Virus record (IMG/VR): IMGVR_UViG_3300046642_000884
Span: 120,966 to 184,965 of that record
Strand: one strand, 5' to 3'
Length of the DNA stretch: 64,000 nucleotides
DNA from: a virus
Shown in pieces: positions 6,067 through 46,094 of the stretch. The notes under the pieces are model-generated. The model saw nothing but the letters and a program-made list of their open reading frames with translations, searched no databases and was not told where the DNA came from. A program made the position numbers and the translations under genes. Position 1 is the first letter of the stretch. Each line of letters begins with the position of its first letter.

Positions 6067-6068
6067 AA

Positions 6069-7273: not shown

Positions 7274-7284
7274 ATGTTATTTAT

Positions 7285-7413: not shown

Positions 7414-7437
7414 AATAAAACTCCATTTATATTTAGC

Positions 7438-7466: not shown

Positions 7467-7472
7467 GTGCTA

Positions 7473-25482: not shown

Positions 25483-25768
25483 TGAAAGAGAGCACTAACA
25501 GTAGTAGAAGGGGTATCCCGAAGAGTAGGCATACCACGACCAAGCCCAGCTGGAGGTCTCGACGTTGTGACCATTGAGTATAGTGATTGCCTTCACAGGG
25601 AGGATCATAACCTTGCCGTTTCCAATCAGCATAATCTCTTGCTTCGGCTTCAAGCTTATATTTCATCTGGCCCCAGTAAAAACACTCCCCTAATGGTCGC
25701 ATGTCGTTACCGATTGGCGCCCCACAATTTGGACAGGTCTTCTTAGCCAGTTCAGGTTCTTGCCACAT
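25478..25768 (-). CDS. Zinc-ribbon protein with C-terminal membrane anchor (96 residues)
   Basis: Starts MWQEPELAKKTCPNCGAPIG at the ATG preceded by TAGGAAC; an ATG six codons upstream lacks a ribosome site. CPNC at 12-15 plus later cysteines (GEC near 29, PPC near 57) could bind zinc. Residues about 74-96 are a strong transmembrane segment (LGLVVVCLLFGIPLLLLLVL), giving a tail-anchored topology. It lies between a homing endonuclease and gene 16. Function unknown. Confidence 0.75.
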   Translation of the reverse strand: MWQEPELAKKTCPNCGAPIGNDMRPLGECFYWGQMKYKLEAEARDYADWKRQGYDPPCEGNHYTQWSQRRDLQLGLVVVCLLFGIPLLLLLVLSFS

Positions 25769-26228
25769 TGTTCCTACATCTCCCAATGTGTTGGATATAA
25801 TTTCCTTTTGTCTTGATTGTTCGATTACAATGAGGACAAGTATATGATGTATTGTTTAGCTTGAGAAATGGATTTGTTCCATTAGCAATCCGTTTATTAG
25901 CAACATTTCTTTGTATCTCCCCACCAAGAAAGTGGTGAGTTCCTTTCTCAACTCGCTTTTTGTTGTTCCTTTTTTGATATTCAGTATCGATAAAAGGATG
26001 AGTTCCATCAGCAAGTCTTCTTTTATTAGTTTCACTTATAATCTGGCCTATCGCTTCCTCTTTTCCGATCTGACCTGATAGCATTTGCCAAGCCAATCGA
26101 TCTTGCCAACGACCATGATGTTCATAAAGCTTTCGATGAGCTTCAGCATGTTCTTCGATTGTTAGTAGAACCGTTGGACCATTCTCACCTCCCGCGTGTT
26201 TTGGGATTACATGATGTTCGTGTTTCAT
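25752..26228 (-). CDS. HNH homing endonuclease with repeat linker and C-terminal zinc finger
   Basis: A 158-residue protein. N-terminal MKHEHHVIPKHAGGENGPTV and LTIEEHAEAHRKLYEHHG form an HNH-type catalytic site. The middle has three NUMOD3-like repeats, R.LADGTHPF, KRVEKGTHHFLGG and KRIANGTNPFL, typical DNA-contact modules of homing endonucleases. The C-terminus TCPHCNRTIKTKGNYIQHIGRC is a C2HC zinc finger. Its ATG overlaps the gp15 stop (TAATG) and its end overlaps the next gene by 17 bases, so it lives inside the operon without a promoter of its own. Confidence 0.85.
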   Translation of the reverse strand: MKHEHHVIPKHAGGENGPTVLLTIEEHAEAHRKLYEHHGRWQDRLAWQMLSGQIGKEEAIGQIISETNKRRLADGTHPFIDTEYQKRNNKKRVEKGTHHFLGGEIQRNVANKRIANGTNPFLKLNNTSYTCPHCNRTIKTKGNYIQHIGRCRNNVART

Positions 26229-28256: not shown

Positions 28257-28997
28257 TTATCCTATCTCAGGTAAGGCCGGAACTTCGGTTTCTGATCGCA
28301 TTTTTTGTTCTAGTTCTTCTAGCTCTGCCGAGGCTTCATCGAAGATTTGTTTACCGTTGAAATAGATACCTCCAGGCATTTGCATCTGGCCGAACTTCCC
28401 TAAGTTTTGTCCCCATTGTTTCTTTATGAGTGCAGTAGCATAGCGCATTAGGTAGCGGTCCCCCCACACTCTCGGATAGGCAACAGGATCAAGCACCTGG
28501 AAACAATCGATAAGAATTACTGCCCCGGCCCCCCACACATTAAGATCGGCGTTGATCTGAAGTTTATTTGATATCTTGTTGTAAGAGATTGGCTTAAATC
28601 CTACCAATAACTGTTCTAGCAGCGCAATGTGCTGAAACGCCATATAGTATGGAGCCATAGAAACCGAGGTCAGGGTATAGAGGTCATTCAAGGCAATCTG
28701 ATATCGAATAGAGAACATCGAGGTTGCATTGAAGGCGTCGGCTGGAGGATAGATCGAAACAGCCCCAACAATGTTATCGGGGAGCGTAATATATTGGTTT
28801 ACAACGTCTTGTCCAGTAAGCACATATCGATAGAACTGGCGGGTACTCGCATCGCCATTGAAAGTCTGCCAGTACATGATGGCTTCGTCTATACGATCTT
28901 CAACCTGATTATCGGAGACATTGATATTAATGACCTCGTTTCCAAGTTTGCGCAGGCAATAAAGCTTAAAATCATTGCGAGTTGCTGGTATTGACAT
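28257..28997 (-). CDS. gp13: gp13 neck protein
   Basis: A 246-residue protein (T4: 309). Typical segments are RNDFKLYCLRKLGNEVININVSDNQVEDRIDEAI.YW, then YITLPDNIVGAVSIYPP, YYMAFQHIALLEQLLVGFKPISYNKISNKLQI and VWGDRYLMRYATALIKKQWGQNLGKFGQMQMPGGI.FNG. It closes the packaged head together with gp14. It abuts the upstream gene exactly (stop next to start). Confidence 0.95.
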   Translation of the reverse strand: MSIPATRNDFKLYCLRKLGNEVININVSDNQVEDRIDEAIMYWQTFNGDASTRQFYRYVLTGQDVVNQYITLPDNIVGAVSIYPPADAFNATSMFSIRYQIALNDLYTLTSVSMAPYYMAFQHIALLEQLLVGFKPISYNKISNKLQINADLNVWGAGAVILIDCFQVLDPVAYPRVWGDRYLMRYATALIKKQWGQNLGKFGQMQMPGGIYFNGKQIFDEASAELEELEQKMRSETEVPALPEIG

Positions 28998-29360
28998 TTA
29001 AATGCTCCCAACCTCCCCCGCTCCTGCATAATAAACATCTTCAGCCAAAATCGTTAGTGAAACAATCGGAGGAGTACCAAAATTGACTTTAGTTCCGGCC
29101 CCAGATGTTCCGCCCAGAGGATTGGTTCGAGCAATAGTGCCGGAACCAGCCGCAGAAAAGATACCCTGACCGAACTCTCGTTGGGTGGGGTTAAAGAGGG
29201 AATCAACAGCCGTATAGGATACCCATTGCCCATCGACCAAATCACCGGCAGTCACAGCCGAGGTCAGATTTGCAAATGAGGTTCGTGATCCACCATAGAC
29301 AAAATCTACTGTTCCGGAGGAGGTGGCTACAAAGGATACTGCGTCTTCTGATACTATCAT
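28998..29360 (-). CDS. Putative small virion protein, 120 residues
   Basis: A beta-rich protein with FVYGGSRTSFANLTSAVTAGDLVDGQWVSYTAVDS and FGQGIFSAAGSGTIARTNP, then TKVNFGTPPIVSLTILAEDV. That architecture (Y...D...WE.G.G.y....gtl.Rt.v.s.......vnf...p.V....) is common in fibre-associated modules of phages, and a related one is in the gene at 61273-61851. It follows the giant repeat gene and precedes gene 13. It may be a head or neck fibre attachment piece. An AGGAAT lies before the ATG. Confidence 0.75.
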   Translation of the reverse strand: MIVSEDAVSFVATSSGTVDFVYGGSRTSFANLTSAVTAGDLVDGQWVSYTAVDSLFNPTQREFGQGIFSAAGSGTIARTNPLGGTSGAGTKVNFGTPPIVSLTILAEDVYYAGAGEVGSI

Positions 29361-29368: not shown

Positions 29369-29376
29369 TATTTATT
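29369..29376 (-). promoter_or_regulatory. Late-promoter-like AATAAATA before the 120-residue gene
   Basis: AATAAATA (one mismatch to TATAAATA) overlaps the stop codon of the giant gene and lies eight bases before the next ATG. It could start a transcript of the neck genes. Confidence 0.35.
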
Positions 29377-32300
29377 AATCGGAAGGACCACCAGACGGAG
29401 GCTTAAAAAGCGCTGTGATCTGTTTTGTTATTTTCTTAAAGTTCCCAACTACGGTTTCGGGGACAACTCCAGAATGCTCTCTAATCGATTCTGTTCGTTT
29501 CTGGACATTTGCCATAATATTATCAGAGATATCTTTCGTAAATTTAGCGATGACGCGTAACCGTTCGATGAACCAGGTTTGCAGAGTGGCCAGGGCCGTA
29601 ACAGATGCAGTCAAAACGATTCTTACCCTAATAAACGAGGCAAGTGACCAGACTGTTGCCCTCACTATAAACTTGATTGGCGGATAATGCTGAAGGACGC
29701 CTGGTCTAAAGACGGCTCTTATTGTTGCTAACAAGATTTTTCCAGCACGAAGCGTTTGGCTGGCTACGATTGTGACTGGAGAAAACAAGATTTTTATAGG
29801 AGTCTTGGCCAGCCGAGCCGCGGGGGCAACCATAACAAGCCAAACCCTGCTAGTTACACGGCTCAGTAACAATGGAGACGACACCAGTGCAAGACGAATG
29901 GCTGAGATGGTTCTACGGTATAGAACGGTAAAGGTAACTGTAAAGACTCGAATCATCGCTATAGTCTTTTGTAACAAGGCACGAGGAACAGCTTGATATG
30001 TTTTGGTTATGGAGACTAACTTTCCAACCTGTGAAGATACAGCCACATTGAACCTTGTCGCAATGCGTGTTATTGCTTTGGCTAGTGTGGTCAGAACTGT
30101 GATTGGGAATATTACTGTTGTCGCCACAGTCTTTTGCAATAACGGAACAGCGGCTATAAGGCTAAACAGCCGTTTCACCAGGACTTGTCCAACCCGCAGG
30201 GTTGTTACCAGCGATTTATATATTTTGGTAAGAGTGATGGTTCTTTGGATAAAGACTTTTGTAAAAACTTGATACAGATCAGCCGTAAGCATTAGAGTTT
30301 TTGTCAGCATGACACGCGGAAGAACTTGGAAAACATAGCTTCTGTTCTGTTGGAGATGACTGAATGCTTGAATAGAGCTTATATATGATGCTCCTTCAAC
30401 AAAGGCCTTTCCAATATGAAGAAATGAGTCAATTGATTTTGCAGAAAACGTCTTGTCTCTCCCTAGGGTTTTACTAAACAATGGTGCCAAACTCATTAGC
30501 ATTAGGGTTGGAACTTTTGTTATTGCTCGGCTGATTCGTGTGGTTAGAACAACCTGATATAGCGAGGTTATAGCAAGGGCTAGCTTGCCAAACAAAAAGG
30601 TTGTTGTTGTCTGGAAAGTTCTTGGTCGAAGAAACGATTTAACGAACTGCCAACTTACCTTTGCTGATGCTAGAAGGGCCTTTGCTGAAGTAATAGCATT
30701 TGAGGCGGAGATAGCAATAACAAATCTAGTGGTTGTTCTTATGGCGTTTTGTAATAATGACGAAGCTCCAAGAGTGAAGATTTTTTCTCCACTTTGGATA
30801 AGTGACTTGAAAGCTATTGCAACAACAGGGACAAAATTCAAGTTCTTACTAAGGTCCTTAAGCAGCGAAGCTGTTGTAGTTGTCATAAATGTATAGCTGG
30901 GATAGTATCCCCTTGTGTATTGAAACAAGAAGGTCACGGTCGAACCAAACAGCAATACTCCTTTGGTAATGGCTTTTCTGACTAAGAAGACAGGGCTTAC
31001 CAAGAATACAGTTATTTTGACAATAGCATTCGGAAGCCACGAAACATTTGTCACCGCTTTAAACAGCTTGGTTACAACCAAATCTTTTTGGAGTAATGCC
31101 ATTGGTGTGGCTGCCATTTTGAAAGTTCTGACAAAAACATTGGACGCAACCTGAATGAATGGAATGGATATGCCGAGGAATATCTGCTCGGACTTGTTGA
31201 TGGTTCTTCTAACTAAACCACGAGCGCTTACTACGAATGATGTGGCTGGGCGAATCAAAGATTTTTGTATCGACGAGAAAGCTATAATACCAGAGAATGT
31301 TCTGGCCATGGCAACAGCCTTTTGTTGTAGGAGAGCTGTACTAGCCGTGCTGAATGCTATTATTTTGTTAAGCGAATTCTGTGAAGCAAAGCTTAGGGCT
31401 GCTAGACCAAAACCAATAGGTCTTGTAATCGTTTTTTGGAGGAAACTAGCAAGATTGATTAAGAATATGGTGGTGCGGGCCAGCGATTTCTGTATCAAAG
31501 AACGGGCAGTAGCATTAAATGTTTTGAATATCGAAAGTGTTCGTTGCGCAATAAAAGCACTGGCCGCTGCCTGGAAAGTTGTGAGCTTAGTAGCTCTCCT
31601 TTGTATAGCATTGAATAATGCAGCCGCAGTAAAAACAAGAGCCGATTTTCCAATAGCTTTTACCGAAGTAACTGTAGCTGTTATACCAAAGAGAAGTGAT
31701 GTTGTAAGAGCTGTTCTTCCCCAGCGAACAGAAGCTGCCGCTTGATAGGTTTTGATTTGGTTAATAGCCTTTTGTAGTCGAGAAAATGTTAAAGCTGCAA
31801 AGAACGATCGAAGCATTGATGCTGTTTTTGTCAGTAAAGCCGTTGTTGTAGTTGTAAAGAGACCAGATTGGGCAAGATGATGTATTGTGCTCTTGACGGT
31901 TCCTACGAGAACAGCACCACCCTGGAATAGCTCTTGCATATCAGCAATGGCTGCTTCACCAATAGCTCCGCCAAAGCCCATAATGTTGCCAAAACCAAGA
32001 GGGAATGTCGAAACATAGCCCAGTAGTTTCACAAGGACTGCTCTGCCGGGGAAAGTAGAAGCTGTTGCCGCTGCCTTGAAGAGTTTGATGGTCGATATTG
32101 TTCTGATTATTTGTGCGGCTGAAACGGTAATCAACATATTGAAAAGTTGTAGAACCGAAGAAACCTGCTTTGCTAGGAAGAATCCTCCTTGTCCTGCTAC
32201 ATATAATTGTGCAACTTCATTGGCTGTTAGGGCCCGATTGTAGGTTTGGATATCATCAAGCGCTCCGTTATACCAGAACCAACCTCCTGGATCATTTACC

Positions 32301-35300
32301 CAGCTTGAATTTCCAACGCCCAGCCAATAATTGTAGGAGCCAGGACTATAATCGTTTTGAGCAACAACTTGGCTACCGACGATGTTTTTATCGATATAAA
32401 GAGTTTCGGTAGTTCCATCATAAGTATCTACTGCCTGATGCCATTGTCCATCATTGAGTGCAGCGGCCGAAACAATCTGGGAGGTGGTAGAATTGTGCCA
32501 GAAGAAGCTGGCGCGTAGGAATCCAGAATTGTCGATATAGAGTGCCGGAACGTGTCCTGCAGGAAGGGCTCCTCCAGGAGTGGCTGGTTGAGCTTGTCCC
32601 AAAATAATTCCCGAAGCGGTTGTTTTGAACCAACAAGTAAATGATCCTTGATAGCTGGCGCTATAGTTAAAGGCTGCAGCCGGTATAGAAACATAACCTG
32701 TCGATCCATTGAACTGTAGGGCGTTGACTCTTCTTCCAGGAGCTGTTGTAACTCCCCCATTTTCTGTTCCATTAAGAGCGTTGCCGGATGTATCGTTTGC
32801 TGAGCCATCATCAAACGAGTAATGTGCTATTAGCCCAGAAAAGGTTGTTGTCGCGTTTTTACCAAAGACAACGAAGAATGTCAGCACGTGACCCTTCATA
32901 GCCTGAGTTTTTGCTGCTACTGCGACAATGAAACTCGACATTTTACTTAAAAATCTTGGCGGTTGAACAAACGATGCGACAACAAGTTGAAGGATAGATT
33001 GTAATTTTGTTTTTGTCTGGATTGCGGCTGCCCGAAGGTTGAAGAGTTTTGCTCCAGGGAAGACTGCCTTTATGATAGTTAAAACACCAGCAATCGAAGA
33101 TTGAATGACTTTGCCCGTCGCTTTTTGCGTGGTTATTGTGGCGGCTATAACGAAGCTGGAAATACGAGCCAACAATTTTTGCGGCTGAAATAATACGACA
33201 GCTTTATAAACGGTAAGCTGTGCCTTCAATTTTTGTGCCTGGAAAAACACGTTTATTATATAAACAACAGTTTTCGCTTGTATCTTTAATAGTAGGGGAG
33301 CGGTTGCCAGAACGTTGAAGATTTTTTCAGGAGCCGGAATATTCTTTAGGAGGTTCATTGTGCTGTTGAATGAGACTGAAATCGGCAGCTTAGTTAGAGC
33401 CTTTTGGACGTTTGAGATTGTGCTTACAACAAAGTTATAAACTATAACATAAGGTTGCTTTGTGATTAGCTGGAAGCTGGCAGTTACACTAAAAATAATA
33501 AGCTGTGTTGCTCTTTGTAGCGAGGCGGCTGCTTGTAGAGCCGACAACATATTAAAGAAAATTGCGGCGGGCAAGATATTCTTTGTTAGAGCAAGAACGC
33601 TAGCAGCCGATGATTGTATGGTCTTAGCCAATGCTTTTTGAGATTTTAAGACGGAGATTGCGACAAAGCTGTAAGCTCGACCATAGATTTTCTGAAAGCT
33701 GATCTGAAACGATGCTACAGCCTTAAAAATAGCCAGCTGTGATTGTGCCCTCAGCAATTGAAGAGTTGTAGTTGTCAGTATCCTGAAGAACTTTGCTCCT
33801 GTCACAACGCCCTTTAAAACAATCATAATTGCTGAGGCTGAAAATTGGCTGGTTTTGCTTAGGGTTCTTTGAACCCGGAAAGTTGTAGCTATAGCAAACC
33901 GATAGGCTTGGTTTGGCAGCCGTTGGCTGTAAAACGACGCGGCGGCTAGATGGACAAGAATGCGTGATGTGCCAACTCGTTGTTGAGCAGTTGAACCAGA
34001 TGCAAGAATGTTGAAGATTTTAGCGGACGATGAAAGGTTCTTGACAATGGCCACAATGCCCGCTATAGAGAATTGGACCACCCGGGCTCCAGCCTTCTTG
34101 ATTTGTGAAGTTACAGTTGCCGCAAAATTAACTAGCCGAGCTGATGATTTTTGTGCTTGGAAGCTTGCAAGGGTATTAAAGAATCTTGTGGAAGAAACAG
34201 CTCTTAGAAGTGTCCAGGTGGTAGAAGCTACAAAGCTTGAGATTTTACCGGGAGTTTTAACCAGAGCAAGCTTCGCTGAAGTTGCGAAGTTAGTAGCAAT
34301 CCTGGTCACGATTTTGATTATAGCCGAAATGGTGCTGGCTGTGAAACTTGTCGTTTTACCCAGGGCTTTAACCATGGTTGCGCTGGATGTTGCCGGGAAG
34401 TTCGTAATCTTGCCCAGAGCTTTGAGTAGGCGCACATTGGCGGTAATGGCCATTACTGCAGAGTAAGGAAATTGATTGGTTCCACTGATAAACTGAGTGG
34501 TAAGCAATAACCTGACGCTTGCCAAGAATAATATTATTTTGCCGAGGGCCTTCTGAACAAGACTTGTAGGCGTTGCAACAAATGTTCGGAGCGCTACAAG
34601 AGATTTTTGTAGAAGAGCTGAAGCAGCCAGACGGAATATTGTTGTTCTGCTCATCGCTTTTTGTAGAAGCGTTGTCGTCGCTGAGCTGAATATTGTTGTT
34701 CTGCTAAGCGCTTTTTGTAGAAGAGTTGTTGTAGCCGAGCTGAATGTTCTTAGGATCGTAGCGGCTTTCTGGATTTGGTTTGAGGCGGCGGCAAAAAAGA
34801 CAACAGCTTTAGCTGCAGTTTTTTTAGTTAATGCCGATGTTACGATTTGATACTGGCGGGCTATAGGGGTAGTAACTTTTTGGATCAGGCCTACAATTCC
34901 GGCAAGAAAAAGGACGCTCTTGTTTATTGCCTTTTGTAGCGGTATTATTAAACTAACCTTCATAGATTTTACGTTTGAAATAGTCTTTTGAAGTGTTGCT
35001 CTAACATTAGCGGCGAAAATATTAATCTGGGAGAATTGTTGGCTGGAACTTTTAATAGCAGTTACCAGAGCTGCGCCTCCCTGAAATAGCTCCTGCATAT
35101 CGGCTATTGCCGCTTCACCAATAGCTCCGCCAAAGCCTATAATGTTGCCAAGACCAAGAGGGAATGTTGAGATATAGGCCAACAGATTTTTGAGACTGAG
35201 TTTGCCCTGGATAGTAAGATAAATTGCGCCAACGTTATAAGTTAAAGTCTTTGAAAGAATTTGTAATCGACTTATTTGATTTGTTATCAACAGACTATAG

Positions 35301-36694
35301 ATATCAGGAAGCGGAGTTATTGTTTTTTGGAGCAGTAAGCCCATACTAATATTATATAAATCAGCAGCTGGCTGAACTTGCTTCTGAATCAACGAACGGA
35401 TGGCCGGAAAAAATAGTTTAGTTGAGTTTATGATGGGATGGGTTAAGCTGCTAATAGCCGTTGGACTAAACGTTGCTAATTTGTTATATAATTTTCCTAT
35501 GATTGAACTAAAGGACGCAAGACTATTAAAAAGTCTGCTTGAAGAGACGTTTTTTAGCGGCTGCAGCTGAGGATTTATGATATATATGTCTGGAGCTGGC
35601 GTGATGTTTTTTATATCGAGGAATTGTGAACCCCCCTTGAAAGTAAGTGTCAGGGGAGTATTTGCCGCGCCTACTGTATAGATAATGACGATCAAACCAC
35701 CGCCGCCGACACCAGCAGTCTTGACGGTAGAAGCGGAACGAACTGCACCCGATCCGCCGCCGCCTCCCCCAAAGTTGGCTCCAGCACCTCCTGTTGCAGT
35801 GTTGGCAGTATTAGTCGCGTTCCCTCCAGAGCCACCGCCTCCTCCGCCAGAACCGTTAGTTGCGTTCGCGTAGTAGGTATTACCAGTTGCCCCAGCTCCT
35901 CCCGAACTATTAGCCGCGCTAGCAGTGAAGCCACCACCTCCGCCACCGGCTCCTGAATTCGCTGCAGCGGCAATACCAATACCAGTCGCTCCCCCGAGGC
36001 CTCCAGCAACACCGCCCGGACCCGATCCTCCCTTTCCTCCCGTTGCCGAGGCACCAACTGCCGTTCCGACTGTCGAAGATGTTCCTCCGCCTCCGCCGCC
36101 TCCTCCTCCGCCTCCGGATGCGGATGTGCTGCCGGCTCCTCCGATCATACCAGCGGCTGCGCCAGTGCTGGTCGCATTGGCTCCGGCTGCGCCACCCCCG
36201 CCTCCGCCGCCCCCGAAAGTAATCGTTACGGTTGAGGCTGCGCCGTTTCCTCCCGCAGCACCTATTGCTGTATAAACGGCCGCGGCCGATGCAACTGATG
36301 CTCCATTGGCATAGCCGGTTCCGTTCGCAATGCCGCCGGTTGTTGTGACACCGGCTCGACCCGCCATCGCCCAATAGGCTTGGGTGCTTCCAGCAGTATT
36401 ACCCTGCCAGAAAGTTCCAGCAGTGTTGGAGTCAGTTGTGGAAGTGTTGTTATTGGAGATTTGAAAAGTAGTCGAAGATGCAAGCGCTCCGGATGAATAG
36501 GCAAGACGAACAAAACCTCCTCCAGCCCCACCAGAACCACCAGGCGTCGCGCTGACGCCAGAGGCTCCGACACCGCCACCCCCTCCACAACCAATCAGAT
36601 GAACGATATGACCTGCGTCGGTCCAATCCCCTGGTTTTGCCCATGGCGCTGAGTTTCCTAATGCGGCAGTAAGGAAGACTGTAGTTGTTGCCAT
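29375..36694 (-). CDS. Giant repetitive virion protein: Gly-rich head, 18-residue repeats, LamG-like domain
   Basis: A single 2439-residue frame. Residues about 1-345 are a Gly-rich domain (GCGGGGG..., ending GGGGLIVIIYTV), as in phage fibre tips. About 360-1285 and 1505-2350 are tandem repeats of near 18 residues, consensus LLQKALSRTTIFSSATTT (Q-K at 3-4, R at 8, F at 12). About 1285-1500 is a LamG/concanavalin-like domain (GLIAHYSFDDGSANDTSGNA ... NGSTGYVSIP ... DDIQTYNRALTANEVAQLY). The last 80 residues are amphipathic and charged. From about 538 to 1285 only one acidic residue (Glu about 1123) occurs. It probably forms a long fibre or other virion structure, as it sits beside neck genes and overlaps its upstream gene by one codon position. 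No homologue is recognised. Confidence 0.85.
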   Translation of the reverse strand: MATTTVFLTAALGNSAPWAKPGDWTDAGHIVHLIGCGGGGGVGASGVSATPGGSGGAGGGFVRLAYSSGALASSTTFQISNNNTSTTDSNTAGTFWQGNTAGSTQAYWAMAGRAGVTTTGGIANGTGYANGASVASAAAVYTAIGAAGGNGAASTVTITFGGGGGGGGAAGANATSTGAAAGMIGGAGSTSASGGGGGGGGGGGTSSTVGTAVGASATGGKGGSGPGGVAGGLGGATGIGIAAAANSGAGGGGGGFTASAANSSGGAGATGNTYYANATNGSGGGGGGSGGNATNTANTATGGAGANFGGGGGGSGAVRSASTVKTAGVGGGGLIVIIYTVGAANTPLTLTFKGGSQFLDIKNITPAPDIYIINPQLQPLKNVSSSRLFNSLASFSSIIGKLYNKLATFSPTAISSLTHPIINSTKLFFPAIRSLIQKQVQPAADLYNISMGLLLQKTITPLPDIYSLLITNQISRLQILSKTLTYNVGAIYLTIQGKLSLKNLLAYISTFPLGLGNIIGFGGAIGEAAIADMQELFQGGAALVTAIKSSSQQFSQINIFAANVRATLQKTISNVKSMKVSLIIPLQKAINKSVLFLAGIVGLIQKVTTPIARQYQIVTSALTKKTAAKAVVFFAAASNQIQKAATILRTFSSATTTLLQKALSRTTIFSSATTTLLQKAMSRTTIFRLAASALLQKSLVALRTFVATPTSLVQKALGKIILFLASVRLLLTTQFISGTNQFPYSAVMAITANVRLLKALGKITNFPATSSATMVKALGKTTSFTASTISAIIKIVTRIATNFATSAKLALVKTPGKISSFVASTTWTLLRAVSSTRFFNTLASFQAQKSSARLVNFAATVTSQIKKAGARVVQFSIAGIVAIVKNLSSSAKIFNILASGSTAQQRVGTSRILVHLAAASFYSQRLPNQAYRFAIATTFRVQRTLSKTSQFSASAIMIVLKGVVTGAKFFRILTTTTLQLLRAQSQLAIFKAVASFQISFQKIYGRAYSFVAISVLKSQKALAKTIQSSAASVLALTKNILPAAIFFNMLSALQAAASLQRATQLIIFSVTASFQLITKQPYVIVYNFVVSTISNVQKALTKLPISVSFNSTMNLLKNIPAPEKIFNVLATAPLLLKIQAKTVVYIINVFFQAQKLKAQLTVYKAVVLFQPQKLLARISSFVIAATITTQKATGKVIQSSIAGVLTIIKAVFPGAKLFNLRAAAIQTKTKLQSILQLVVASFVQPPRFLSKMSSFIVAVAAKTQAMKGHVLTFFVVFGKNATTTFSGLIAHYSFDDGSANDTSGNALNGTENGGVTTAPGRRVNALQFNGSTGYVSIPAAAFNYSASYQGSFTCWFKTTASGIILGQAQPATPGGALPAGHVPALYIDNSGFLRASFFWHNSTTSQIVSAAALNDGQWHQAVDTYDGTTETLYIDKNIVGSQVVAQNDYSPGSYNYWLGVGNSSWVNDPGGWFWYNGALDDIQTYNRALTANEVAQLYVAGQGGFFLAKQVSSVLQLFNMLITVSAAQIIRTISTIKLFKAAATASTFPGRAVLVKLLGYVSTFPLGFGNIMGFGGAIGEAAIADMQELFQGGAVLVGTVKSTIHHLAQSGLFTTTTTALLTKTASMLRSFFAALTFSRLQKAINQIKTYQAAASVRWGRTALTTSLLFGITATVTSVKAIGKSALVFTAAALFNAIQRRATKLTTFQAAASAFIAQRTLSIFKTFNATARSLIQKSLARTTIFLINLASFLQKTITRPIGFGLAALSFASQNSLNKIIAFSTASTALLQQKAVAMARTFSGIIAFSSIQKSLIRPATSFVVSARGLVRRTINKSEQIFLGISIPFIQVASNVFVRTFKMAATPMALLQKDLVVTKLFKAVTNVSWLPNAIVKITVFLVSPVFLVRKAITKGVLLFGSTVTFLFQYTRGYYPSYTFMTTTTASLLKDLSKNLNFVPVVAIAFKSLIQSGEKIFTLGASSLLQNAIRTTTRFVIAISASNAITSAKALLASAKVSWQFVKSFLRPRTFQTTTTFLFGKLALAITSLYQVVLTTRISRAITKVPTLMLMSLAPLFSKTLGRDKTFSAKSIDSFLHIGKAFVEGASYISSIQAFSHLQQNRSYVFQVLPRVMLTKTLMLTADLYQVFTKVFIQRTITLTKIYKSLVTTLRVGQVLVKRLFSLIAAVPLLQKTVATTVIFPITVLTTLAKAITRIATRFNVAVSSQVGKLVSITKTYQAVPRALLQKTIAMIRVFTVTFTVLYRRTISAIRLALVSSPLLLSRVTSRVWLVMVAPAARLAKTPIKILFSPVTIVASQTLRAGKILLATIRAVFRPGVLQHYPPIKFIVRATVWSLASFIRVRIVLTASVTALATLQTWFIERLRVIAKFTKDISDNIMANVQKRTESIREHSGVVPETVVGNFKKITKQITALFKPPSGGPSD
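29650..32185 (-). repeat. Second block of 18-residue (54-base) coding repeats in the giant gene
   Basis: The block encodes about 845 residues after the LamG-like domain with the same spacing: a K or R pair, an aromatic eight or nine residues later, then hydrophobics. Examples are ARSLIQKSLARTTIFLI, LQKTITRPIGF and VSSQVGKLVSITKTYQAV. Drift between copies is strong at both DNA and protein level. Confidence 0.75.
31912..32026 (-). repeat. Duplicated 115-base module, copy 2 (GFGGAIGEAAIADMQELFQGG)
   Basis: Encodes STFPLGFGNIMGFGGAIGEA and then AIADMQELFQGGAVLV at about residue 1560. It matches the copy at 35071-35185 closely in DNA and protein. It interrupts the 18-residue repeats just after the LamG-like domain. 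Confidence 0.85.
32840..35620 (-). repeat. First block of 18-residue (54-base) coding repeats in the giant gene
   Basis: About 925 residues of repeats upstream of the LamG-like domain. The best preserved copies are at about 34580-34760, where LLQKALSRTTIFSSATTT, LLQKAMSRTTIFRLAASA and LLQKSLVALRTFVATPTS follow one another, and the DNA is nearly identical between two copies (aatattgttgttctgct). Elsewhere copies keep the 18-19 residue spacing but vary in sequence. Confidence 0.8.
35071..35185 (-). repeat. Duplicated 115-base module, copy 1
   Basis: Encodes STFPLGLGNIIGFGGAIGEA and then AIADMQELFQGGAALV at about residue 510. It is the partner of the module at 31912-32026. Each copy opens a long repeat block, which suggests the whole block plus module was duplicated around the LamG-like domain. 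Confidence 0.85.
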
Positions 36695-36970: not shown

Positions 36971-36978
36971 TATTTAGA
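36971..36978 (-). promoter_or_regulatory. Late-promoter variant TCTAAATA before the 88-residue/giant unit
   Basis: TCTAAATA contains the stop codon of the methyltransferase gene and lies 10 bases before the ATG at 36960. It is identical to the octamer at 11383. Confidence 0.4.
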
Positions 36979-37621
36979 TTTTTTGGTAAAGTCTAATCCA
37001 GGTGAACTCGGAAAGCTTTCCAAACGTCTCAGGAAGCTTGAATTCCGTATAGACCTTATGAGTGGCTGCGGTTAGTTCCGAACAACCATCGAGGAGGGCT
37101 CGAATATCAATCCCATCGGTAGCCCAAACTAGTTTACCGTCATGTTGACAAGGAACAACTCGGTTATAATTATTAACGACAAGCATATAGCCTCCAGGTC
37201 TTATCAGCGAGGCTATCTGCTTTATGGTCTGTGCTGGATGCATCACATGCTGAAGCACCCATACCGCCAGGACCAAATCAAACTTAATGTTGAGGTCCTG
37301 GAGATAATTTGGATGAACCGGAATCCAGTTAGGCGAAGCCATATAGGGAATAGAAAGTGTTCTCATATTCATGGAGATATCGGCTCCCACAATCAGATTA
37401 TCGCGGGTTACAAGTTCTTTGGAGAGGCGGCCAATTCCACAGCCATAGTCAAGGATTTTCTTGAACGGACCATAAGGTTTCAGGAGATTGATAAGAGCCG
37501 GAGTTTCGAGTTCCCATCGTTTGTCGGTGGAATTATCAGCTTCGGGAGTGAGGATTATTGATTTGGCTTCTTCACGGGTTGCAACATCAAAAACAGTAGG
37601 ATCATAGTTATATTCATTCAT
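36974..37621 (-). CDS. SAM-dependent methyltransferase (class I)
   Basis: A 215-residue Rossmann methyltransferase. Motif I ILDYGCGIGRLSKEL (56-70), GADISMNM (acidic end of strand 2), FDLVLAVWVLQHVMHPAQTIKQIASLIRPGGYMLVVNN (motifs IV-VI) fit methyltransferase types 11/12. The substrate is not evident: candidates are a sugar of a virion or surface glycan, given nearby glycosyltransferases, or a protein. It is preceded by a hairpin and embedded late promoter that should confine its expression to late times. GGGAG lies 12 bases before the ATG within the hairpin arm. Confidence 0.85.
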   Translation of the reverse strand: MNEYNYDPTVFDVATREEAKSIILTPEADNSTDKRWELETPALINLLKPYGPFKKILDYGCGIGRLSKELVTRDNLIVGADISMNMRTLSIPYMASPNWIPVHPNYLQDLNIKFDLVLAVWVLQHVMHPAQTIKQIASLIRPGGYMLVVNNYNRVVPCQHDGKLVWATDGIDIRALLDGCSELTAATHKVYTEFKLPETFGKLSEFTWIRLYQKI

Positions 37622-37698: not shown

Positions 37699-38421
37699 TT
37701 ACGCAAGCTGAACTTTTAGAGTAAACGCAATCGAGTCCGAAGCGTTTAGGGCAATGTTTGCGAAGTCGCCGTGAACGAACATCGATCCGCCGTTAGCGCC
37801 AGCTGAGTTTACTGTTACAACTGGAGCGATAGATGCGTTAGCAGTGTGGGCTCCCCCGTCTCCGCCGGCTGTAACAAAGGCACCAATTGGGTGAGCCACG
37901 GCTGTCGAGCCAAGCTGGGCTCGGGTAACGGTCAGGGTAGAAGTGCCTTGTCCGCCCGTAACAAACACAACTTCGTTTTCGATTTGAGCCAGATAGTTAA
38001 GAGATGTTGGGAGAACTGCAAAGCCGGTTATGCCAGCTCCAATTGTGACAGTCGTAGCACCAATAGCCATCGAGGAAGTTGTAATCTGAGCTGTTCCTGA
38101 AAGAGATGTTCCAGTATCGAATAGACCAACCTCAGCAATAGTTTTTGCTGCGGTTGAACAGGTCATTGTTCCAACAACCTGATAGACGTCGGCAAGCTGG
38201 TTGGCGGTAAGCTGAGTGACAGCTCCAGCAACACGGGCTTCCGGGTTAGGGTTTGCTGGTTGGAATAGATTAACATCGGAGAAAGCTGAAGTAGTGATAT
38301 AGGTCGCATTGAGGCCGTTTGCAATACCCCAGCCAATATTCACAGGTTCGGTTCCGACTCCGTGAAGTTTATTAAGAAGGATTGAGCGTCCCGCCCAGGT
38401 TACAACGTTTGCAGCAGCCAT
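37699..38421 (-). CDS. Putative virion structural protein, 240 residues
   Basis: A Thr-, Ala- and Gly-rich protein beginning MAAANVVTWAGRSILLNKLH. N-terminal G....NIGWGIANGLNATY...AFSDVNLFQPANPNPEARVAGAVT, then KTIAEVGLFD, EVVFVTGGQGTSTLTVTRAQLGSTA.AHPIG and the end GDFANIALNASDSIAFTLKVQLA resemble structural proteins that form tail or head decorations in several phages ('G..........i..vgl........l......f......L...D.i.ft..v.l'). It has its own late promoter and TAGGAG ribosome site and is followed by palindromes and a terminator. Confidence 0.7.
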   Translation of the reverse strand: MAAANVVTWAGRSILLNKLHGVGTEPVNIGWGIANGLNATYITTSAFSDVNLFQPANPNPEARVAGAVTQLTANQLADVYQVVGTMTCSTAAKTIAEVGLFDTGTSLSGTAQITTSSMAIGATTVTIGAGITGFAVLPTSLNYLAQIENEVVFVTGGQGTSTLTVTRAQLGSTAVAHPIGAFVTAGGDGGAHTANASIAPVVTVNSAGANGGSMFVHGDFANIALNASDSIAFTLKVQLA

Positions 38422-38482: not shown

Positions 38483-39847
38483 TCAAGGACTATAGACAAA
38501 ATCTTTGGAACCCAAATTCAAATGGGAGTGGCTTTTAGACGATCCATGAGGAACATAGACCTCTGGTTTAAACTTCGTCTTAAACTCCTTCAAATCACTT
38601 ACAACTCTATTTATAGCAGTTTCCCATTGACCAGGATAATCCTGACGAACCAATTTCAGCGAGGGATACCACGGAGTTGTTAATTTCCCATCACGGCCAT
38701 AGGGCCAGTAGTTGGCATGATTTAACAAGCCCCATACTGGAATGTCTAGGGCTCCAGCCAGATGAAGCGGAGCAGTATCTACTGTGATAACAAGGTCAAG
38801 TTGTTGAACTGCCGAGATTGTAGCGTTCCAACCCTCTTTTTTTATCCTCGGAGCCAGATCAAAAAGGATTGGCGTCATTCCCAGCCGTTCAATATCCTTC
38901 TGGGCCTCGTCCATTTGTAGCGAAAAGAATGTAATATCAGGATCGGTCAAGATGGGAGCCATAGTTTCGAGCGGAAACGATCGCCAATGGTTCATAAGAA
39001 AATCAGGATTGCCGGCCCAACAAATCCCAACCTTAGGAGTCGAACGGGTTGTCTTTAACTTAAAGCTTCTTACGTGCTTGGCATAATCCTTCAGGAAACC
39101 AGGATCAGGAGGAATATTGTCGGGAGTTGTGTTAAATATCCCTAACAATGACATCATATAAATGCCATAGTCGGCCTCAGGATACAACACTCCGAACGGG
39201 ACAAACTCATCAATAACACCACGACGTTTATATTCCCAAAATAACGGAAGGTTCCAGTGTTGGGTTAGAAAAAGAATCTTAGAGGATGGCCATTTCTCCT
39301 TAATCAGAGGTAAGAAACGAGAGACCATTATACAGTCGCCTACCCCTTGTTCTGCTCGAATTAATAGTGTTTTATCAGTAAGGTCTTCGCCATGCCATCT
39401 AGGGAAGTTAAAACCTTCATAGTCGTGTGAGGCGTAACGAAAGCGGACATCAAACTCCTCTAAACCTCTTTTCCAATCACCTCGATCAAGATGATTCATC
39501 ATAAGATTCCAGGCATAGTCGGCTTTGTCGGGATTAAGTTTTTGGGCAAGACGGTATTCCTGCTCTGCTTCATCGAACTTGTTCATCGAATTATACAGCA
39601 AACCAAGGTTACAATGAGCCGCCATATTATTGTTATTGGCGGCAACTGCGGCGAGCGAATATTCTAACGACTGGTCAATGTCCTTGACATTCCAGTAAAC
39701 TGCTCCAAGATTACCAAGGATGCGATCGTGCCCAGGACAGAGCACGAGTGCCTGCTTAAAACAACATTCAGCCGCAAGGAACTTGCGGTCGTTCATACAG
39801 GCATAGGCAAAATCATTTAATTTTTCAGCAATATCATTATCAAACAT
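38483..39847 (-). CDS. TPR-repeat glycosyltransferase (GT9-like), 454 residues
   Basis: Residues 1-135 contain three to four TPR units (ALVLCPGHDRILGNLGAVYWNVKD; AAHCNLGLLYNSMNKFDEAEQEYRLAQKLNPDKADYAWNL). A GT-B-type domain follows, with TLLIRAEQGVGDCIMVSRFLPLIKEKWP, KVGICWAGNPDF.MNHWRSFPLETMAPIL and TVDTAPLHLAGALDIPVWGLL, the donor-site signature. SPWYPSLKLVRQ..PGQW ends the domain. Such TPR-GT9 proteins occur in alphaproteobacteria and their phages and are thought to glycosylate surface or structural proteins. It lies among virion genes, so virion glycosylation is plausible. It is a paralogue of 9702-10661. Confidence 0.88.
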   Translation of the reverse strand: MFDNDIAEKLNDFAYACMNDRKFLAAECCFKQALVLCPGHDRILGNLGAVYWNVKDIDQSLEYSLAAVAANNNNMAAHCNLGLLYNSMNKFDEAEQEYRLAQKLNPDKADYAWNLMMNHLDRGDWKRGLEEFDVRFRYASHDYEGFNFPRWHGEDLTDKTLLIRAEQGVGDCIMVSRFLPLIKEKWPSSKILFLTQHWNLPLFWEYKRRGVIDEFVPFGVLYPEADYGIYMMSLLGIFNTTPDNIPPDPGFLKDYAKHVRSFKLKTTRSTPKVGICWAGNPDFLMNHWRSFPLETMAPILTDPDITFFSLQMDEAQKDIERLGMTPILFDLAPRIKKEGWNATISAVQQLDLVITVDTAPLHLAGALDIPVWGLLNHANYWPYGRDGKLTTPWYPSLKLVRQDYPGQWETAINRVVSDLKEFKTKFKPEVYVPHGSSKSHSHLNLGSKDFVYSP

Positions 39848-41148: not shown

Positions 41149-43434
41149 ATGTTTCAGACTCCAGGTTCTCGTCCTAAACAAAGATATCCTAATATAAGCG
41201 GGAAGGGAAATCTCCCTGTTGCCAATGCGGTCTCGGTTGGCAATTCGACGGTCAATGTCTCGGTCAATTCAACAAATATATCGGTTGGAGCGAATGTTGA
41301 TATTAACCAAGCAAACATTTCTGTTGGTAATACCACAACTAATGTCTATATAAACTCAACCGCGGTATTTATCGGCAACGCCTCGGTCAACGTTGCGGCA
41401 AACTCAACTGTTTTTTCTGGAACTGCCAACAATGCGCTCAATCTTGGTGGAACTGCGGCTGCTGGTTATCAGACTACGGCTGGACTGGCGGCTAATGTCT
41501 TAGTTCTGACCGCAAATAATGCCAACTTCCTCGGAACTGTAGCGGCTGCTTCCTATCAGCTAAACAGCACTCTGGCTGCAAACGTCCTGACTATGACCTC
41601 AAACAACACAAATTTTGTTGCTTCAGGTCAGACCCTTATTAACTCTACATCATGGCAGATAGGAAACACGATTGCCAATGTCACAATCAATTCAACATCG
41701 ATCTTCATTGGTAATGCGACTATCAACGTTGCTGCAAACTCAACCGTCTTCTCTGGAACAGCTAACAACGCAACCAATCTAGGAGGCACCGCAGCCGCTG
41801 GTTATCAGACTACGGCTGGACTAGCCGCAAATGTTCTCGTCCTCACGGCTAATAACGCCAACTTCCTCGGAACTGTTGCTGCAGCCTCATATCAGCTAAA
41901 CAGCACACTGGCTGCAAACGTCTTAACTATGTCTGCGGCGAACGCGGTTGTTATTAACCAGGGTCAAACAATCGTCAATTCTCAATCCATAACAATTGGT
42001 AATACTATAGCCAATCTATTCATAAATTCAACTGCCATAGAAGTTACAAACGCTACTTCAAAGTTTCATAAAGACCCAGGCGGATTTTCGATAGGCAACT
42101 CAACTGCTAATAATTTTGGTAATTCTATTATAGAGATTTTAGCAAATTCATTAGGTCAGACAGTTTCAACGCCTATCTCTATGTCACTGGGCAATTCTAC
42201 GGCCAACGCCTTCGTGAATTCAATCCAAATATATCTAGTCAATTCTACTACCGGCTCAAACACAACAATTATTCCGGGAGTTATTTCTCTCGGAAACACC
42301 ATTTCTAATATTTCGGTTAATTCAAGTCAGATATTGATTGGTAACGCAACAGTCAACGTTCTAGCAAATTCAACTACCTTCTCTGGAACGGCCAACAACG
42401 CAACCAATCTTGGAGGCACTGCGGCTGCTGGTTATCAGACTACGGCTGGACTGGCTGCGAATGTTCTAGTCCTCACTGCCAATAATGCGAACTTCCTTGG
42501 AGGAACAGCAGCAGCAGGCTATCAGACCACGGCTGGACTAGCTGCTAACGTTTTAGTTCTAACATCAAACAATACAACCTTCCATGTTTCAGGCCAGACA
42601 ACTATTAACTCTACAACGTGGGGTATTGGTAATACCGTAGCTAATGTGTTTGTAAACTCAACAATTATGTTAGTTTCCAACTCGACCGCTCAAACCATTA
42701 TTACTCCTAATACTGTCACACTCGGCAATACAATTGCAAACGTGTCGGCGAATGCGACAATAGTGTTTGTGGGCAATGCGACCTTCAGTGTCACCGTAAA
42801 CTCAACCGCCTTTTCTGGAACTGCTAATAATGCGCTCAATCTTGGCGGAACGGCTGCAGCCGGTTATCAAACAACAGCCGGACTAGCAGCCAACGTTTTA
42901 GTTCTGACCGCAAATAATGCGAACTTCCTTGGAGGAACAGCAGCAGCCTCATATCAGCTAAACAGCACCCTGGCGGCTAATGTCTTGACTATGACCGCGA
43001 ACAACACAAATTTTGTTGCTTCAGGTCAGACACTAATCAATTCAACTTCGTGGCAAATCGGCAATACCACCGTCAATACTACGATAAACTCAATATCATT
43101 AGCATTTAACGGCGTTTCATTATTCTCAACAGTTAACTTCACCACCTCTGGAACTGGTGCCCAGGTTATCGATTCGTTTCTAATCGCCACATTCCGCTCA
43201 GCCGAATATGTTCTCTCGATCAAGGATACTGCCGCCAACAACTATCAGACTTCCCGGATCGAAATGCTTCAGGATGGAACGAATGCAATTCTAACAGAAT
43301 ATGCCCCCCTGATTAGCAACACAGCGATGGGAACATTCACCGCAACAGCTAATTCCACTGCAGCTGCACTAAACTTTACGCCGGTTTCAACTGGAACTAT
43401 AGTAAAAGGCTCCAGGCTTGCCTATACAGTATAA
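41149..43434 (+). CDS. Asn-rich repetitive tail-fibre-like protein, 761 residues
   Basis: The N-terminus (SVGNSTVNVSVNSTNISVGANVDI...) is a ladder of short repeats '.VGN.T.NV..NST..' followed by four to five copies of a longer unit FSGTANNA.NLGGTAAAGYQ, then TTAGLAANVLVLTANNANFLG. The last about 110 residues (AQVIDSFLIATFRSAEYVLSIKD..ANNYQ...AILTEYAPLISNTAMGTFTA) form a non-repeated C-terminal domain shared with the minus-strand gene at 44517. The ladder suggests a beta-solenoid shaft and the end a tip or chaperone-like domain. It begins six bases after the previous gene. Likely role: a receptor-binding or distal fibre part. Confidence 0.8.
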   Translation: MFQTPGSRPKQRYPNISGKGNLPVANAVSVGNSTVNVSVNSTNISVGANVDINQANISVGNTTTNVYINSTAVFIGNASVNVAANSTVFSGTANNALNLGGTAAAGYQTTAGLAANVLVLTANNANFLGTVAAASYQLNSTLAANVLTMTSNNTNFVASGQTLINSTSWQIGNTIANVTINSTSIFIGNATINVAANSTVFSGTANNATNLGGTAAAGYQTTAGLAANVLVLTANNANFLGTVAAASYQLNSTLAANVLTMSAANAVVINQGQTIVNSQSITIGNTIANLFINSTAIEVTNATSKFHKDPGGFSIGNSTANNFGNSIIEILANSLGQTVSTPISMSLGNSTANAFVNSIQIYLVNSTTGSNTTIIPGVISLGNTISNISVNSSQILIGNATVNVLANSTTFSGTANNATNLGGTAAAGYQTTAGLAANVLVLTANNANFLGGTAAAGYQTTAGLAANVLVLTSNNTTFHVSGQTTINSTTWGIGNTVANVFVNSTIMLVSNSTAQTIITPNTVTLGNTIANVSANATIVFVGNATFSVTVNSTAFSGTANNALNLGGTAAAGYQTTAGLAANVLVLTANNANFLGGTAAASYQLNSTLAANVLTMTANNTNFVASGQTLINSTSWQIGNTTVNTTINSISLAFNGVSLFSTVNFTTSGTGAQVIDSFLIATFRSAEYVLSIKDTAANNYQTSRIEMLQDGTNAILTEYAPLISNTAMGTFTATANSTAAALNFTPVSTGTIVKGSRLAYTV
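41410..43020 (+). repeat. Tandem coding repeats of the fibre shaft
   Basis: DNA units of roughly 100 bases encoding ANNA(L/T)NLGGTAAAGYQTTA and LAANVLVLTANNANFLG recur near 41430, 41770, 42390, 42500 and 42830. Within them 20-40 base stretches are almost identical. They are alternated with NSTSWQIGNT... ladder units. Confidence 0.8.
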
Positions 43435-43482: not shown

Positions 43483-44508
43483 ATGGCTACACAAGATTTC
43501 AGAGTACGACAAGGACTAGCAGTTAATACTGCGCTCACGGTAAACACCACCTTTGTCGCTAATTCCACAACAATTGCTGTTACTGGAGCGCCAGTTTGGA
43601 TTGGTAATGCCACAGTCAATACTGTTGCAAATTCGCTAGTTATGTCAGTTGCTGACGCTTCATCGAATACTTCGATAAATTCTACAGCATTCGCAATCAA
43701 AGGTGTTGCTCTTACTAGTGGCGGAAGCAACGTTCAAACCTTTTCAGCAAACGGTACTTGGACAAAACCTGCTTCAGGAACTACTGTTGCTATTTACGTT
43801 TGGGGAGCAGGCGGTTCAGGGGGGTGTGCTAATGCCGCACTCGGTGCGGCCGGCGGTGGTGGTGGTGGTGCATATGTATTTGGTTATGCACCACTTTCAG
43901 CGTTTAATTCAACTGAAACTGTAACTGTCGGCATCGGGGGAGTATCCCGTACTGCAGCAGCCGCATCACTTTCTAATACTGGTCTAGTTGGAGGCGATTC
44001 ATCTTTCAATCAAGGAGGCGTTTCTACAATTTGGAAAGCGTTTGGAGGAGGAGGCGGTGGTAACGGCAACACCAGCCAAACAGCCGGCGGAGGCGGAGGC
44101 GGCTGGACTAGCGCAGGAAGTCCCGGCACTCCAGGAACGGGCTTCGCGATGACCGATCCATTTAGTTCTGGTGGTCTTTCCACTGCCAGCACCCCGGGAG
44201 GGCCGTCAGTCTATGGTGGAGGCGGTGGAGCTGGAGCTGGCGGCGGCACTGGCTTGCTAGGCGGCGCCTCATTTATGGGAGGTGGTGGTGGCGGCAATAG
44301 CGTTAGGAACCTTGCAATTGCGCTGGGGGGTGCCTCATCTTTATCTGGTAATACTTTTGGTGGGGGTAATGGTGGTGCTGGTGGCAATTCTACAGTAGCC
44401 GCAACTGGCGGCGTTTTTCCAGGAGGCGGCGGCGGCGCTGCTGCGAATGGGACGTTTGCAGGCTCTGGTGCGGGGGCTAACGGTCAAGTAATTGTCGTAG
44501 TATTCTAA
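43483..44508 (+). CDS. Gly-rich fibre tip / adhesin-like protein, 341 residues
   Basis: Residues 1-80 are fibre-like (QDFRVRQGLAVNTALTVNTTFVANSTTIAVTGA, then IGNATVNTVANSL), with the RQGL..N start typical of T4-like fibres. Residues 85-341 form a Gly-rich domain (TFSANGTWTKPASGTTVAIYVWGAGGSGG, GGGGGAYVFGYAPLSAF...TVTVGIGG, many G5-G6 runs, ending GANGQVIVVVF), comparable to gp38-type adhesins whose glycine runs pack as polyglycine II helices. It probably contacts the host receptor. The same kind of domain forms the head of the giant gene. It ends nine bases from the convergent fibre gene. Confidence 0.8.
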   Translation: MATQDFRVRQGLAVNTALTVNTTFVANSTTIAVTGAPVWIGNATVNTVANSLVMSVADASSNTSINSTAFAIKGVALTSGGSNVQTFSANGTWTKPASGTTVAIYVWGAGGSGGCANAALGAAGGGGGGAYVFGYAPLSAFNSTETVTVGIGGVSRTAAAASLSNTGLVGGDSSFNQGGVSTIWKAFGGGGGGNGNTSQTAGGGGGGWTSAGSPGTPGTGFAMTDPFSSGGLSTASTPGGPSVYGGGGGAGAGGGTGLLGGASFMGGGGGGNSVRNLAIALGGASSLSGNTFGGGNGGAGGNSTVAATGGVFPGGGGGAAANGTFAGSGAGANGQVIVVVF

Positions 44509-44516: not shown

Positions 44517-46094
44517 TTAAACCGCTATAAGAATTCTGTTTATTTTCAGAACGGTGCTTGCTGAAGTTGGATTGAAAGTAAGCGCCGCAGCGGTCGCATT
44601 CGCAGAAGCCGTAAAACCTCCCAGATCAGTATTACTTATAAGAGTTCCATAAGAAGTCAGAATTGCATCGCCTCCTGTATGTAACAGAAGTATTTTAGAC
44701 AGCTGATAATTATTCGCATTATTATCTTTGATTGATATCAGATATTCAGCCGCCCGATAGGTAGCTAACGGAAAGGCATCGATCACTTGAGGAACTGCTC
44801 CAGTCGATGAAATTGTTACAGGAGAAATAGCCGAAATTCCAAACGACATCGCCGTGGTATTAACTTGGGTATTGACACCCGGAGAACTAACTGCAATAAT
44901 TGTTGAATTGACTGTGGTATTAGCTATCGTATTACCAATACCCCACGAGGTAGAATTGATATTTGTCTGACCTGAAACATGAAACAATGTATTGTTCGAG
45001 GTCATGGTTAGAACATTTGCCGCCAGTCCAGCAGTTGATAGATAGCTGGAAGGCGGGAGACCTCCAAAGTTGGTGGCATTATTAGCAGTCAGAGTCAGGA
45101 CATTTGCAGCCAGTCCAGCACCTGTTTGATAACCTGCGGCTGCTACACCCCCAAGGAAGTTTGCATTATTGGCTGTTAATAATATAACGTTGGCTGAAAG
45201 TCCAGCAGCCGTCTGATAACCGGAGGCTACGGTGCCCCCCAGATTAAGTGCATTGTTGGCTGTCCCAGAAAAGGCTGAAGAGTTAATAGTTACACCTGTC
45301 CCAGCTCCAATGGCCAGAACTGTGGTTGTCCAGTTATAGGTCAGGTTGGAGCTTCCAGCAAAAGCAGCATTGTTCGAGTACTGAATGGTGGCGTTTGCTC
45401 CACCAGGGGTGCCGCCTCCGCCACCTCCTGTTACCTGAACATTATTAAAAAAGAACCCTGAGGCATTCGCCACCGAAGCTGAAGCCCCACCAAAAATTCC
45501 AGAAGGAGAGACAACAGCCGTCGAATTGACCAGCGAATTGGCCAACGAGTTGCCGATTAACAGTGAGCCTTGCGTGAAGACTGCCTGCGATGTGGCATTA
45601 GCAATAACATCAACCGTTGAATTGCTAAAAGCATTAACAGTTGAGTTGCCAGAAAAGAAGGTGGTAGGAGTTATTGAAGTCTGTCCAGAAGCGTTGGCGA
45701 CCACGATAGATGTTGCAGTTATAGTAAGATTTGCTATAGTATTACCAGCCCAGTAGGATATAGTATTGGCAATAATATTGGCGCCAACTGCAAGAACTGT
45801 GTCATTTACCGCAACGTTTCCAACTTGCAGCCTGAAACCAGTCCCAGTCAGATTTGCGCCAAGTGCAACCGCTGTAGTAGTCCCAACATTACCGCCGCGA
45901 AGCGTCGTTGTAGTAATGGTATTAGCCCCGAAAATACCCGAAACGAATCCGTTTCCGACGGTCATAGCTCCGCCCGCGATAGAATTGGCCGTAACTGTCT
46001 CGTTAGCTAACACCGAAACAAGGTTGTTTGCTAGCGCATACAAATTGCTAAAGTGGTCGGTGCTAATGTTTAGGAAGTTAAGAACCCGGCTCAT
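44517..46094 (-). CDS. Repetitive tail-fibre-like protein, 525 residues, related to 41149-43434
   Basis: N-terminus MSRVLNFLNISTDHFSNLYA, then Asn/Ala/Thr ladders, a central Gly-rich linker (VTGGGGGGTPGGANATIQYSNNAAFAGSSNLTYNW), and the shared units ANNALNLGGTVASGYQTAAG and LSANVILLTANNANFLGG. The C-terminal domain AVPQVIDAFPLATYRAAEYLISIKDNNANNYQ..., AILTSYGTLISNTDLGGFTA matches the plus-strand gene. It is the last gene of the baseplate operon and probably a fibre joined to it. Its start overlaps the 64-residue gene by four bases. Confidence 0.8.
   Translation of the reverse strand: MSRVLNFLNISTDHFSNLYALANNLVSVLANETVTANSIAGGAMTVGNGFVSGIFGANTITTTTLRGGNVGTTTAVALGANLTGTGFRLQVGNVAVNDTVLAVGANIIANTISYWAGNTIANLTITATSIVVANASGQTSITPTTFFSGNSTVNAFSNSTVDVIANATSQAVFTQGSLLIGNSLANSLVNSTAVVSPSGIFGGASASVANASGFFFNNVQVTGGGGGGTPGGANATIQYSNNAAFAGSSNLTYNWTTTVLAIGAGTGVTINSSAFSGTANNALNLGGTVASGYQTAAGLSANVILLTANNANFLGGVAAAGYQTGAGLAANVLTLTANNATNFGGLPPSSYLSTAGLAANVLTMTSNNTLFHVSGQTNINSTSWGIGNTIANTTVNSTIIAVSSPGVNTQVNTTAMSFGISAISPVTISSTGAVPQVIDAFPLATYRAAEYLISIKDNNANNYQLSKILLLHTGGDAILTSYGTLISNTDLGGFTASANATAAALTFNPTSASTVLKINRILIAV

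Follow-up and report, generated by a model that had tools for sequence, protein, structure and literature searches.

What a phage would do with a 2439-residue protein made mostly of short tandem repeats is the question raised by the gene at positions 29375 to 36694 of the stretch of DNA analyzed here (64,000 nucleotides, "the window"), which belongs to a 185-kb virus record (IMGVR_UViG_3300046642_000884). The open reading frame (ORF) lies on the minus strand, has an ATG start, and runs unbroken for 2439 residues, as reported in the initial annotation; the ORF listing and codon usage indicate that it is real and intact. Its codon usage correlated with that of the window's remaining structural genes at r = 0.85 (0.76 to 0.97 among those genes), vs 0.58 and 0.67 for frames 1 and 2 of the same interval. 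The best reverse frame came close to the coding frame in this respect (0.82 vs 0.85).

Homologues are few. Beyond one near-identical end fragment on a contig, no close homologue of the whole protein was found among IMG/VR peptides. Searches of INPHARED by tblastn with the arrays, the head, and the whole protein returned LamG matches only, or none; in GTDB genomes, matches were restricted to LamG domains, and a phmmer comparison with all ORFs at the 80 nearest gp13 loci gave no match. The scarcity of relatives and the low-complexity composition could suggest an ORF or assembly artifact. Such an origin is scarcely credible, however, given the genome-like codon usage, the genuine domains in frame at the head and the middle of the protein, an insert module whose two copies differ mainly at synonymous sites, and a second contig with the identical C-terminal 53 residues and the neighbor gene. 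The initial annotation knew of no T4-family protein of this design; this held among the 80 gp13 loci and the phages searched in INPHARED, but the design does occur in other environmental phages, as described below.

The protein, all of whose parts are on the minus strand, begins with a Gly-rich, putatively receptor-binding head with TNF-like strands and a Gly-rich bundle (residues 1 to 341; 35672-36694), assigned from a head HMM and AF2/Foldseek. Repeat array a (residues 346 to 500; 35195-35659) is followed by copy 1 of an insert module (..FPLGLGNIIGFGGAIGEAAIADMQELFQGG..; residues 505 to 544; 35063-35182) and by array b, with 18-residue units (residues 560 to 1280; 32855-35017). Next come a LamG/concanavalin A-like lectin domain (residues ~1285 to 1505; 32180-32842), a short stretch of a few units (residues 1506 to 1550; 32045-32179), insert copy 2 (residues 1558 to 1597; 31904-32023), array c, with units of 18 to 19 residues (residues 1611 to 2385; 29540-31864), and, by its sequence, a hydrophilic non-repeat C terminus with the stop codon (residues 2386 to 2439; 29375-29539), which is a possible anchor. 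The three arrays were delimited by a unit matrix and autocorrelation (array b also by a 54-bp DNA repeat), the short stretch by the unit matrix, and the inserts by their identity to each other. Thus, of the head-then-repeats layout first proposed, the Gly-rich head and long repeats stand, but the array is broken by the LamG domain and the two 40-residue inserts.

The lectin region is, by profile match, a clear member of Laminin_G_3 (PF13385), which matched residues 1329 to 1495 with an E value of 7.2e-15 and 55.9 bits (gathering cut-off, 27.6), covering profile positions 1 to 151. It shares this family with lectin-like domains of phages and actinobacteria, with relatives in bacterial genomes; unlike in those relatives, the domain sits nested between two repeat arrays. 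The insert copies share 85.7% DNA identity, and the 12 synonymous vs 5 nonsynonymous differences over the 40 codons compared indicate that selection kept the protein sequence of the module.

The period of 18 to 19 residues covers most of residues 346 to 2385, in agreement with what had been claimed for the greater part of the protein. Autocorrelation peaked at lag 18, and also at 19, 36, and 37 (for the two long arrays, z was 10.2 and 5.5), and an iterated unit matrix found 64 units with a score of 802, vs 329 ± 22 (maximum 374) in 20 shuffles put through the identical procedure. One weak unit among the matrix matches falls inside the Gly-rich head. The earlier count of roughly ninety units agrees with the ~92 given by length ([155 + 721 + 45 + 775]/18.5), but only ~60 are individually recognizable. 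In the DNA, tandem repetition (54-bp units) could be detected nowhere but at 34604-34745 in array b, within the stretch (34580-34760) originally singled out as clearest. In the consensus, LLQKALSKTxxFxAAATx, positions 4 and 8 are basic (Lys/Arg) and position 12 is Phe. No entry in Pfam, PHROG, NCBIfam, or the PDB matched the repeats, a two-unit profile run against 33 other records found nothing outside the 2439-residue gene, and a DNA pattern for two units had no match in IMG/VR. Matches to PDB antibody light chains at the head/repeat junction were dismissed as composition artifacts.

Analogous arrays were nevertheless found in seven unrelated phages. A query modeled on similar repeats, its result taken only as a lead, reached MW202615.1, in which a 998-residue ORF (locus L106, 4716-7712, plus strand) has a period of 18 and the same charge bias as the window arrays. 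The GenBank record of MW202615.1 annotates an opposite-strand ORF in place of this one. A DNA pattern for the KQxNK core of these repeats gave real in-frame arrays in 7 of 25 loci (L216/L233, L219, L220, L226, L231, and L232; six distinct phages); L221 was dropped for its short, doubtful frame. An array is preceded by LamG in L216 (8.6e-5, below the curated cut-off) and L232 (2.9e-12), and by an Ig-like domain in MW202615, so that three have lectin or Ig-like N-terminal modules. Like the window arrays, all have a period of 18 and few acidic residues (K+R 9 to 11%, D+E 0 to 2.1%), with two basic residues four apart in the same phase as in the window units; they are several times shorter.

The window arrays themselves are strongly basic, with 11.7% K+R, 0.8% D+E, and a net charge of +180 over 1650 residues. 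Their hydrophobicity periodicity peaks at 3.6 to 3.7 residues (z = 10.8), which is also the fifth harmonic of an 18-residue period and would be shown by a single array by chance about 1 time in 9; this harmonic was the strongest in the window's three arrays and in 6/7 analogous arrays. The 100-degree hydrophobic moment had a z of 8.5, and alternation was depleted (180 degrees, z = −3.5; period 2.0, z = −2.4). From a shallow self-alignment, AlphaFold gave one unbroken 106-residue helix (pLDDT 80), a weak prediction with a pTM of 0.36. The initial annotation had allowed for either helices or a beta-solenoid. The periodicity and the model lend weight to the helical option, short of proof as 3.6 is a harmonic of 18, and we regard helical units as more likely than beta.

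The same adhesin role could be filled by beta units arranged, as phage fiber shafts often are, as a beta-solenoid or as a trimer resembling a triple beta-spiral. Eighteen residues also make one coil of a left-handed beta-helix. The units are rich in Thr, Val, Ile, and Phe, which favors strands over a helical shaft, and their mean Chou-Fasman propensity is higher for beta (1.11) than for alpha (1.04); moreover, many period 20 to 23 arrays behind other Gly-rich heads look beta-like or neither, and L226 and L231 have Gly- or Pro-rich units. A single long helix would also be rotated by the spacing slips to 19 to 20 residues. Even so, a beta shaft is the less likely reading, as in-out alternation is depleted, the position-4 Lys/Arg of most units would face inward in the best hexapeptide register, and both the dominant 3.6 harmonic and the AF2 model point to helices.

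The head is of a known kind: profile and structure comparisons place residues 1 to 341 in a family of receptor-binding heads that is widespread among environmental phages. About 80 IMG/VR loci were found with a query from a typical Gly-rich start, used without poly-Gly. An HMM of 51 phage heads matched the window head with an E value of 6.6e-18, vs 0/200 shuffled heads at E ≤ 10. An AF2 model of the head with 40 relatives reached a pTM of 0.65, the repeat part being mostly of low confidence. Against the PDB, Foldseek matched the head model to 9d93, the tail tip of mycobacteriophage Bxb1 (2.8e-5), and to 7ypx, the fiber of cyanophage Pam3 (5.4e-4), with a probability of 1.00 and moderate TM-scores (0.45 to 0.48 by target), followed by a weak match to the ALK Gly-rich domain; S16 gp38 itself was not among the fold-search matches. 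Matches in a viral library included many "Glycine-rich domain-containing" phage proteins, one of them from P-SSM2, and some named concanavalin A-like lectins.

The Gly-rich domain of Pam3 gp24 has been described as recognizing the host receptor (PMC9608196), and Bxb1 gp33/gp29 and Pam3 have been noted as PPII helical bundles (PMC13243192). A Gly-rich bundle with flanking beta-strands is what the window head has in common with the Gly-rich adhesins Pam3 gp24, the Bxb1 tail tip, and S16 gp38, and in the solved cases whose fold it matches, Pam3 and Bxb1, the function is phage contact with the host. The Pam3 fiber, however, is a 250-residue chain with a distal Gly-rich domain and has no counterpart of the ~2000 residues of repeats and lectin domain behind the window head, which is N-terminal. 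Related in design are environmental loci such as L111, L133, L182, L184, L187, L209, and L210. These carry the same head family and share neighbor-gene families with the window, and in them, too, a G-x-I-V-I-x-Y strand ends the head and degenerate ~20-residue tandem repeats follow. Their arrays, like the short degenerate repeats behind many other Gly-rich heads, mostly have a period of 20 to 23 and are usually acidic or neutral, whereas the window array has a period of 18 to 19 and is basic and much longer.

The genomic setting is that of a T4-type phage. The best hits of the portal were to Stenotrophomonas phage DLP_6 (49%), the Sinorhizobium phiM12 group (45%), and cyanophages (42%). Fiber genes and baseplate wedges lie upstream of the 2439-residue gene; downstream are gp13 (Ad2), gp14 (Hc2), a sheath stabilizer, the small and large terminase, sheath, tube, and portal. 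The gp13 gene, a neck protein and head-tail adaptor (28257-28997, minus strand; phrog_211, 1.2e-34), marks the T4 fiber/whisker-neck junction, and the interval between baseplate-wedge/fiber genes and the gp13-gp14-gp15 neck genes corresponds to that of gp9-gp12-wac in T4. In the contigs whose gp13 is most closely related, fiber/baseplate-type ORFs of 1000 to 2800 residues often occupy the same place, none of them like the 2439-residue protein. T4 gp34-37, gp12, and fibritin share this position, but the protein has no PHROG or Pfam sequence match to them.

Two small neighbors were also followed. The adjacent gene (28998-29360, minus strand; 120 residues) belongs to a small family (HMM E value, 5.6e-8) that adjoins the Gly-rich-head gene in 9/10 other loci. 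Two genes upstream of the large ORF, a 240-residue collar/fiber-I-like protein (37699-38421, minus strand) was characterized by phmmer, an iterated HMM, and, via a relative, PF23140. With phmmer it matched L232 (8.4e-18) and MW202615 (1e-6) and nothing else in 214 loci; the iterated profile added L231, L226, and L216/L233, in which the relative comes directly after the array gene, and also L207. Relatives were thus present in 5/7 array phages vs 1/206 other loci (Fisher p = 3.6e-8; 3e-6 when compared with Gly-rich loci alone), figures to be read in light of the broad collar/fiber family (PHROG 5417/4176) to which the product belongs and whose more distant members also sit immediately upstream of the Gly-rich gene in some loci (L182, L187). 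The MW202615 relative is annotated as a tail collar fiber and matched PF23140 ("GP4 fiber I") at 6.5e-6, just under the curated cut-off. Sequence searches of the PDB with the neighbor genes gave no match. GP4, whose "fiber I" one relative resembles, is a podophage.

Because of the fiber-position locus, the Gly-rich head, the lectin domain, and the fiber-type neighbors, the best reading is the very long fiber that the initial annotation had listed among its options. An adhesin role appears well supported by these domains and their context, and the protein, which falls outside every described fiber family tested, is probably a modular adhesin of phages whose repeat class has no name yet. We consider it probable that it is a fiber-class adhesin in which the Gly-rich head and LamG domain would touch the cell surface, held by a spacer or shaft of about ninety strongly basic, amphipathic, most likely alpha-helical units, and in which the hydrophilic C terminus and the small collar/fiber-type partners (28998-29360 and 37699-38421) would anchor the protein to the tail or neck. 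Over its whole length, the cationic array may also bind to the anionic envelope of the bacterium. For such a fiber, this envelope contact, like its place in the virion, its orientation, its oligomeric state, and the helical fold of its repeats, is what we infer. The moderate TM-scores of the head and its N-terminal place speak against it, as does the self-repulsion expected of a uniformly cationic parallel oligomer.

The charge raises two alternatives. The arrays may chiefly be a membrane- or polyanion-binding brush of cationic amphipathic segments, directed at LPS or acidic capsule, rather than a rigid shaft. The near absence of Asp/Glu, the net charge of about +2 per unit, the amphipathicity, and a bias common to all analogous 18-residue arrays, whereas most arrays that follow other heads are acidic or neutral, make this a possibility, if a somewhat doubtful one, since the bias could serve solubility or assembly. 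Strong positive charge and amphipathic helices could likewise bind DNA or membranes in a basic internal, ejected, or host-directed protein off the virion surface; with a Gly-rich fiber head, a lectin domain, a fiber-position locus, and fiber/collar-type neighbors, that role is improbable.

For the fiber-class adhesin, a broader and more tentative proposal is that the basic 18-residue units make up a repeat class shared widely among phages and not yet described, one of long cationic amphipathic alpha-helical arrays acting as multivalent envelope-binding shafts. These would possibly have been exchanged between myo- and podoviruses as a cassette that includes lectin, Gly-rich, or Ig-like heads and a collar/fiber-I partner, the window example being the longest and most diverged found. 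If true, such a shaft would be an unusual fiber build, and host attachment could be partly charge-driven. Modular adhesins of uncultivated phages are mostly without annotation, and the combination of recognition head, short-repeat array, and collar-type partner gene recurs in unrelated phages, missed by Pfam, PHROGs, and NCBIfam. The motif [KR]Qx[NSG][KR] occurs nowhere in the 2439-residue protein, and HMM searches and hhalign found no link between the window repeats and the KQxNK arrays, MW202615 included. A column-order permutation test between the two gave a weak signal (p = 0.017 pooled; 0.001 to 0.23 for single arrays), with the best shift identical for all seven arrays.

Two fibre-like proteins of the window, encoded at 41149-43434 (+) and 44517-46094 (-), have NATNLGGTAAAGYQTTAGLAANVLVLTANN-type repeats and similar C-termini in common, and likely represent a pair that arose by duplication. 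The window's second Gly-rich protein, a smaller one of 341 aa (43483-44508, +), matched PF21722 Gly_rich_2 (2e-8) and phrog_863, tail fibre assembly, and is encoded on the strand opposite to the giant repeat ORF. The fibre cluster also contained a methyltransferase gene (36974-37621, -) and a TPR + glycosyltransferase-9-like gene (38483-39847, -), the products of which could have the fibres as modification targets.

A homing-endonuclease-like gene (25752-26228, -; phrog_12324, 3.6e-10) was flanked by the sheath stabiliser gene on one side and the small terminase gene on the other. Upstream of the baseplate wedge genes, 61273-61851 (-) encoded the window's second member (HMM, 3.6e-12) of the family of the 120-aa gene adjoining the giant ORF (28998-29360, -).

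Among other phages with 18-residue arrays, MW202615.1 encoded a 998-aa ORF with an Ig-like domain and 18-residue repeats (4716-7712, +); its annotation there instead gives a 603-aa ORF on the opposite strand (5774-7585) and short ORFs, which are probably wrong-strand calls. In phage loci L226 and L231, the collar-like genes adjoining the arrays (7797-8501 and 9788-10441, respectively) both encoded an N-terminal Trp-rich hydrophobic stretch.
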